Below, one piece after another: positions 26,009 to 50,530 of a stretch of DNA of 64,000 nt; position 1 is the first letter of the stretch, and the number at the start of each line of letters is the position of its first letter. Source of the DNA: a virus. Below the pieces are notes generated by a model, which was not told the DNA's origin, did not search any database, and saw only the letters and a program-made list of their open reading frames with translations. The DNA lies in IMG/VR virus record IMGVR_UViG_3300021371_000007, positions 17,947 through 81,946 of that record. One strand, 5' to 3'. A program made the position numbers and the translations under genes.

Positions 26009-26084
26009 TGGTGCTCCCACACGGACTCGAACCGCGGACCTATTGATTACAAATCAATTGCTCTACCAGCTGAGCTATAGGAGC
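26009..26084 (-). tRNA. tRNA-Thr (anticodon UGU)
   Basis: A full 76-base cloverleaf read on the minus strand. Acceptor GCTCCTA pairs with TGGGAGC (one T-G wobble). The D-arm contains AGCTCAGCTGGTAGAGC, the anticodon loop is TTTGTAA on an ATTGA/TCAAT stem, the T-loop is GGTTCGAGTCC-like, and a CCA is encoded. Anticodon TGT reads ACA, a threonine codon favoured by AT-rich genes. It follows the NrdB stop by one base and is cut from the same transcript, ending at a strong terminator. Confidence 0.95.
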
Positions 26085-50154: not shown

Positions 50155-50175
50155 AGTGTTATTCAAAATAATGAG

Positions 50176-50470
50176 TGTCACTTTTTCTGTTGCTAGGCAA
50201 GTGACCAGCCCCCTTAATTATGCAGCTAGTGCGTAATTAGATGGTGCAAAGTTATCGTTTGCATTTGTAAAGTTTGGCTGAATATCGTAGGCCAACACGG
50301 TAATCTACTCTCATCTCTTCACGTCAGTCGATCCTAGTTCAGCCCCATCAAAAACACACTGTTGCTCAAGGTTGCGATCCTACAAGACTTACTGACGCCT
50401 AAACGTACTCAGTGTGCTTATGGTGGAGCTGCGCGGTACTGCCCCGCGGTCCTGTCCATGTGTTGACTTG
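50176..50470 (-). ncRNA. ssrA: tmRNA, circularly permuted two-piece form
   Basis: Minus strand. The acceptor piece comes first and ends CAGCTCC-A-CCA (50431-50421). A 74-base intervening segment follows, closed by CACACTG/CAGTGTG. The coding piece then starts GGGGCTG (50346). GGGGCTG and CAGCTCC form a seven-pair acceptor stem with the G3-U pair that AlaRS needs. The acceptor piece has GGAC, a T-stem CGCGG/CCGCG and a non-canonical T-loop. In the coding piece, GTAG/CTAC and TTGGC/GCCAA make a PK1-type pseudoknot 11 bases before the resume codon, and GTCACTT/AAGTGAC forms a 3' hairpin. Such permuted genes are typical of alphaproteobacteria. The 5' end (about 50470) is approximate. Confidence 0.93.
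50218..50262 (-). other. tmRNA tag reading frame (ANDNFAPSNYALAA)
   Basis: Starting at GCA (50262), 14 codons give ANDNFAPSNYALAA and a TAA (50220-50218). ANDN is the usual alphaproteobacterial start (E. coli has ANDE). The hydrophobic ALAA end is the recognition site for ClpXP-type proteases. The frame begins 11 bases after the PK1 candidate. Confidence 0.92.
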
Positions 50471-50483
50471 TATCAACGATTAC

Positions 50484-50530
50484 AAAAAAGAGGTTTAATA
50501 CGATAGAGATATCGCAGTTAGTGACCTCTT
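50484..50530 (-). terminator. Terminator-like hairpin before the tmRNA
   Basis: On the minus strand AAGAGGT pairs with ACCTCTT, with an inner CGATA/TATCG hairpin, followed by TTTTTT. It overlaps the end of the 39-residue gene and lies just upstream of the tmRNA acceptor piece. It could terminate the small-gene message or mark an RNA processing point. Confidence 0.5.

Follow-up and report, generated by a model that had tools for sequence, protein, structure and literature searches.

The window, a 64,000-base stretch of DNA from an uncultured phage (bases 17947-81946 of an 81,946-base IMG/VR record that may be incomplete), carries on its minus strand what we judge from sequence data, with a probability of roughly 0.85, to be a working gene for a phage-borne tmRNA of the permuted, alphaproteobacterial type. 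By ARAGORN, by Rfam and in the sequence itself, the acceptor piece lies upstream of the coding piece. The preliminary description of this DNA had claimed a phage-encoded, permuted two-piece tmRNA, and that claim is borne out by matches to RF04321 and RF01849 above their cut-offs, by the permuted call of ARAGORN, by conservation in sibling phages and by covariation. The most likely role is ordinary trans-translation that would support phage protein synthesis. In that case, a divergent T5-like siphovirus lineage keeps its own ribosome-rescue RNA under selection, and the gene adds evidence that aquatic phages manage the translation quality control of their hosts.

A complete permuted tmRNA gene

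RF04321 (tmRNA_permuted) matches the locus at 112 bits (cut-off 47, E 5e-21, model positions 1-213), and RF01849 (alpha_tmRNA) does so at 97.8 bits (cut-off 50, E 2e-25, model positions 1-355). The alphaproteobacterial type had been staked on the latter model in the preliminary description, and it stands at this score. ARAGORN calls a permuted tmRNA with the tag ANDNFAPSNYALAA. Better limits for the gene are 50483-50174 on the minus strand, within which it is complete; the locus and strand had been given correctly, and the original interval of 50176-50470 falls about 13 nt short of the full acceptor piece. Each of the features first listed is present: the CAGCTCC-A-CCA end of the acceptor piece (50431-50421), the GGGGCTG that pairs with it over 7 bp, a G3-U wobble (G3 at 50344 with U70 at 50427, an alanine identity element), a PK1 with 11 nt between its end and the resume GCA (50262), and a tag ending in ALAA (Table 1).

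A one-piece tmRNA (RF00023) at this locus was rejected, as the CCA-ending acceptor lies upstream of the tag and the permuted-form models alone matched. The only other RNA gene that Rfam finds in the window is a tRNA-Thr(UGU) at 26012-26084. The G+C content of the tmRNA gene is 47% versus 33% for the genome, and the minimum free energy fold of the precursor is only 2 sd better than shuffles. A blastn search of the window tmRNA against phages returned no match even at E 1, a result that is uninformative here because permuted tmRNAs do exist among those phages.

Table 1. Features of the tmRNA locus, in positions of the window
Feature	Position	Strand	Details	Evidence
Terminator-like stem with T-run	50484..50530	minus	AAGAGGT 50530-50524, ACCTCTT 50494-50488	sequence, siblings
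Acceptor piece (tRNA-like 3' part)	50421..50483	minus		RF04321, RF01849, ARAGORN; T-stem and acceptor covariation, 37 phage sequences
P2 region, 5' strand	within acceptor piece 50421..50483	minus		
T-arm stem	50448-50444 with 50436-50432	minus	loop GGCAGTA, resembles alpha consensus	
Acceptor 3' strand	50431-50425	minus	discriminator A 50424, encoded CCA 50423-50421	
Intervening sequence (IVS, spacer)	50347..50420	minus	74 nt; removal predicted	
IVS-closing helix	50420-50410 with 50361-50351	minus	11 positions; directly after CCA, 4 nt before G1	
Coding piece	50174..50346	minus	acceptor 5' strand, D-like region, PK1, tag ORF, PK2	ARAGORN, Rfam, sequence
Acceptor 5' strand	50346-50340	minus	GGGGCTG; pairs with 50431-50425, 7 bp	
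PK1, H-type	50274..50299	minus	CGUG/UACG and UUGGC/GCCAA	sequence, pseudoknot scan, S2 covariation (21 variants)
PK1 stems	S1 50299-50296 with 50289-50286; S2 50295-50291 with 50278-50274	minus		
Tag reading frame	50218..50262	minus	resume GCA 50262, tag ANDNFAPSNYALAA, stop TAA 50220-50218	ARAGORN
PK2, downstream of tag	~50177..50209	minus		RF01849 match reaches 50174
PK2 stems	S2 50205-50199 with 50183-50177; S1 50209 to about 50192	minus	S2 GTCACTT with AAGTGAC	

Conservation in siblings and covariation among relatives

Four sibling records extend as far as the locus, and each of them has the gene. Identity across these four is 90-97% in the flanks, 94-100% in the coding piece and 79-100% in the acceptor piece, and the tag ANDNFAPSNYALAA is common to all of them, followed by TAA or TGA. 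In three of the four, the IVS is 28-35% identical and measures 30, 94 or 111 nt versus 74 nt in the window, and the helix that closes it is retained despite replacement of the spacer. Conservation of the two pieces together with replacement of the IVS is as selection on a two-piece product predicts. By this comparison, the IVS is a length-variable element that would lie outside the mature RNA.

A wider set of relatives consists of IMG/VR contigs that match one exact 21-mer of the resume region (at least 119 contigs); these are metagenomic contigs gathered with a single exact 21-mer, and frequencies among them are not population estimates. Among the matches listed, 111 of 119 contigs have a perfect permuted acceptor upstream, with ACCA and G3-U70, the wobble pair being present in 111/111 of those with such an acceptor; most of the remaining 8 of the 119 listed run into a contig end or deviate from the strict pattern. 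A 5-8 bp S2 stem of PK2 is found in 100 of 112 relatives among the matches listed. We rejected a chance origin of the arrangement, which is shared by 111 relatives among the matches listed and turned up at 3 of 398 random anchor points in an equivalent scan. A truly split tmRNA was likewise considered for 44 relatives with no permuted acceptor in the first scan, and rejected when Rfam and a wider scan revealed that these genes are permuted too, their 5' region being short or their IVS long.

Across 37 distinct phage sequences, 96.1% of the cells in the tmRNA structure are paired, compared with 73.4% when columns are shuffled and no more than 53.2% in slid versions, and double-change cells number 202 versus 55.5 in shuffles. 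The acceptor stem is paired in 100% of cells, with double changes in 3 pairs and an invariant U-G column, and the T-stem covaries as well; the acceptor set of this alignment was filtered with ARAGORN, which biases it toward acceptor and T-stem pairing. To our knowledge, that filter takes no account of the spacer helix, which has compensatory double changes in 10 of its 11 pairs across the 37 sequences. For S2 of PK1, 95% of cells are paired in 21 hand-aligned variants versus 80% in shuffles, a percentage that is inflated since the arms were picked by pairing, and double changes occur at three positions. Per-sequence pseudoknot scoring did not separate the sequences decisively from shuffles (38/58 versus 37%). 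Sequence and covariation together show a paired tRNA-like domain with G3-U70, a spacer helix, PK1 and an ALAA tag.

The phage and the origin of the gene

The terminase and DNA polymerase of the window phage are nearest to those of T5-like siphophages, at about 38-40% identity. Other genes found encode head, portal, tail and tape-measure proteins, ribonucleotide reductase, ThyX, DnaB and UvdE. An N4-like phage, suggested by a 3415-residue ORF, was rejected, since that ORF matches tape-measure families and the terminase and DNA polymerase are T5-like. The tmRNA is followed directly (49558-44092, minus strand) by sugar-modification genes, which encode a hexapeptide transferase, an NAD-dependent epimerase/dehydratase, a glycosyltransferase and others without a function call. 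Tyrosine integrase (PF00589) was not found in the 81.9 kb record, which may be incomplete; as far as that record extends, the result is compatible with a lytic-type lifestyle.

Could the gene be a relic of the host? tmRNA genes are classic integration sites, and a prophage origin has been discussed for the tmRNA gene of phage Melnitz (PMC9004378). By this route, imprecise prophage excision or an attachment site would have left a copy or fragment of host ssrA with no function of its own. We consider this very unlikely for the window gene, which is complete, is retained, with compensatory changes, in sibling phages, contains no 15-mer that is repeated in the 82 kb record, and is accompanied by no PF00589 in that possibly incomplete record. 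An attachment-site remnant was rejected on similar grounds: neither a fragmentary gene, nor PF00589, nor a duplicated core of at least 15 nt was found in the record, which may be incomplete. The tag also speaks against a host remnant. The pattern ANDNFAxxx[YF]ALAA has a single match among 84,980 species with one genome per species, and the contig concerned carries T4-like phage clamp, clamp-loader and dCTP-deaminase-like genes (named by eye) within a MAG. Because the sole match is a phage contig, this tag type seems to be mainly phage-borne, given a strict pattern and a collection from which the true host may be missing.

The same distribution bears on a further reading, in which the tmRNA works and its main benefit lies in a tag of the phage's own that suits, or evades, a particular host protease or adaptor and would thereby redirect protein turnover during infection. 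Tags of 14 residues with this pattern do recur in unrelated phages and are nearly missing from sequenced bacterial species. However, the C-terminal ALAA for ClpX is retained, which implies no change of protease, and the residues before it are variable; the search used a strict pattern, on a collection that may lack host species. We therefore regard a tuned tag as a doubtful explanation of the benefit.

Comparison with known phage tmRNAs

A permuted form had been called unusual in a lytic-type phage, and this part of the preliminary description is not supported: 53 two-piece forms appear in a published survey (PMC9004378), more than 100 occur in IMG/VR, and several isolates have them. The survey covered 18,146 phage genomes and found 133 unique tmRNAs, with 50 of the 53 two-piece forms from marine or aquatic phages (PMC9004378). 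The phage entries of the tmRNA database comprise 79 sequences (PMC11915505). The window gene is an addition to two-piece phage tmRNAs that are already published.

The window gene resembles alphaproteobacterial two-piece tmRNA (RF01849, RF04321) in its piece order, GGCAGUA-type T-loop, G3-U70, PK1, GCA, ALAA and PK2. It differs in lying in a phage genome, in its tag ANDNFAPSNYALAA and in having its host partner genes off the record. A close counterpart is the ssrA of the Methylophilales phage Melnitz (MZ577097; PMC9004378), a virulent aquatic phage with a permuted alphaproteobacterial-type tmRNA that is annotated in GenBank and has the tag ANDNYVPVDYALAA. In Melnitz, a T4-like myophage, a glutamine riboswitch follows ssrA. 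The window phage, by contrast, is a siphovirus whose terminase and DNA polymerase are T5-like, and no riboswitch in the window reached the Rfam threshold. Permuted tmRNAs above the Rfam cut-off are also found in the phages DSS3_MAL1, MD18, vB_RpoS-V10, RcXuper, RcSimone-Hastad, Phosso and vB_EliS-L02. Among these seven roseophage and alphaproteobacterial phage records, DSS3_MAL1 is the sole one with an annotated tmRNA, and their tags, for example ANTNAAPMEMAIAA and VNDNDVVVARDEVRLAA, differ from that of the window.

Several of these loci have other RNA genes nearby. The unannotated permuted tmRNA of Erythrobacter phage vB_EliS-L02 (OL955261, 72797-78830), with the tag VNDNDVVVARDEVRLAA, ends a predicted array of 23 tRNAs. 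In DSS3_MAL1, vB_RpoS-V10 and MD18, a GOLLD RNA (RF02032) precedes the permuted tmRNA by a few hundred bases and overlaps a tRNA-Arg gene in two of the three phages. A permuted alpha-type tmRNA is also carried by a contig of a T4-like phage (NHBR02000136.1) that is binned in a Bacteroidota MAG ('Muricauda').

One-piece and tag-less phage tmRNAs, including that of mycobacteriophage DS6A (PMC11915505), are phage-borne too but are non-permuted or tag-less. The tag-less DS6A tmRNA inhibits the endogenous tmRNA in E. coli (PMC11915505), a precedent for a decoy or dominant-negative RNA that would compete for SmpB, AlaRS or ribosomes and so block or re-route host trans-translation. Such a role is unlikely here: the window tmRNA has an intact, conserved ALAA tag, PK1, PK2, a complete acceptor stem and CCA, and should therefore act as a full tmRNA.

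Proposed function and expression

If the gene is a working tmRNA, a single precursor transcript would contain the acceptor piece, then the spacer, then the coding piece. Host RNase P would cleave before G1 (50346), 3' processing would yield the CCA end at 50421, and the spacer would be thrown away. Host AlaRS would charge the tmRNA with alanine, and host SmpB would bring it to ribosomes that have stalled on broken mRNAs. Once translation had restarted at GCA, the nascent chain would gain ANDNFAPSNYALAA and pass to host ClpXP or ClpAP. Processing by RNase P and 3' enzymes, alanine charging and SmpB delivery are attributed to Keiler, Shapiro and Williams (2000), as cited in PMC9004378. SmpB (PF01668) was not found in the phage record, and the window tmRNA therefore depends on its host; its partners are probably host SmpB, AlaRS and ClpXP. 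The phage would most likely benefit from the recycling of ribosomes and the clearing of truncated proteins during host mRNA degradation. The roles proposed earlier, namely ribosome rescue, recycling through ClpXP and replacement of a blocked host tmRNA, are all plausible.

Expression is the weak point of the functional reading, because the window and its siblings have a terminator-like stem and no strong promoter. The stem abuts the 5' end of the acceptor piece and is conserved in the four siblings, and a strong sigma-70-like promoter was not found upstream of the tmRNA in the window or its siblings. Among the matches listed, a near-consensus sigma-70 promoter (at least 10/12) lies just upstream in 65% of relatives, versus 3% of control regions.

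tmRNAs with little or no room for PK1

How would a natural tmRNA set its reading frame without a full PK1? The question is raised by relatives whose coding piece begins so close to the resume codon that little or no room is left for PK1. This distance is 47-58 nt in 40 of 111 relatives and 77-86 nt in most others, among the matches listed. The short loci include L013, L025, L038, L082 and 36 others, and nearly all of those tested with Rfam pass the cut-offs. In Pelagibacter ubique, the intergenic region that bears the tmRNA is 217 bp only (PMC2704228), and this bacterium is a possible host precedent for the short form. Forms without room for a full PK1 may be new.

Putative genes within the spacer

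We think it fairly likely, from sequence comparison of relatives, that phages exchange the IVS as a portable site for cargo, which often holds a complete small gene (mostly for a one-helix membrane protein, in some cases an HNH endonuclease-like ORF), so that the precursor would be both pre-tmRNA and mRNA. Among the matches listed, 9 of 35 distinct long spacers have a spanning ORF with a ribosome-site-like motif, compared with 0.35 expected from shuffles. The spacer ORFs start 13-20 nt into the spacer and end at its far end, and dN/dS for homologous pairs is about 0.11-0.32. If these genes are translated, one precursor RNA would serve as mRNA and pre-tmRNA simultaneously, and the permuted layout would readily accommodate incoming small genes and homing endonucleases. 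In the literature searched, we found no description of spacer-encoded genes in tmRNA, which does not prove their absence; the spacer swapping and spacer genes of the relatives may be new.

At the window locus itself, the 111-nt IVS of one sibling record (G002; loci L133/L116) contains an ORF of 34 residues, MSDIVTYLSLKFVQYALIIILFGSLLEVFLMGLK, which resembles a membrane helix and has a GGAG like that of a ribosome site. It runs into the tmRNA coding piece, with which its final codons and stop overlap. The ORF also occurs at L038, L058, L106, L220 and L221, and its pattern, found in 6 contigs, lies inside a tmRNA spacer in 6/6. Moreover, the 111-nt spacer is 89% identical to the spacer of a different phage whose tmRNA has no room for PK1, which indicates exchange between phages. 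Two further spacers contain other ORFs: that of L114 (IVS 514 nt) is HNH-homing-endonuclease-like (E 1.7e-11), and that of L077/L089 (IVS 327 nt) has an HNH-like C-terminus. These HNH-like ORFs suggest that the spacer may be a landing site for mobile genes.

Of the 68 IMG/VR loci of a second family, membrane-protein-like and of about 72 residues, 7 lie within a tmRNA spacer and 61 elsewhere. The members inside a spacer (L011, L115, L032, L152-L155, L157, L161 and L212) include both tmRNA forms, and the 61 other loci are among L156-L219. The family also occurs as a free-standing phage gene, which sometimes adjoins the tmRNA.
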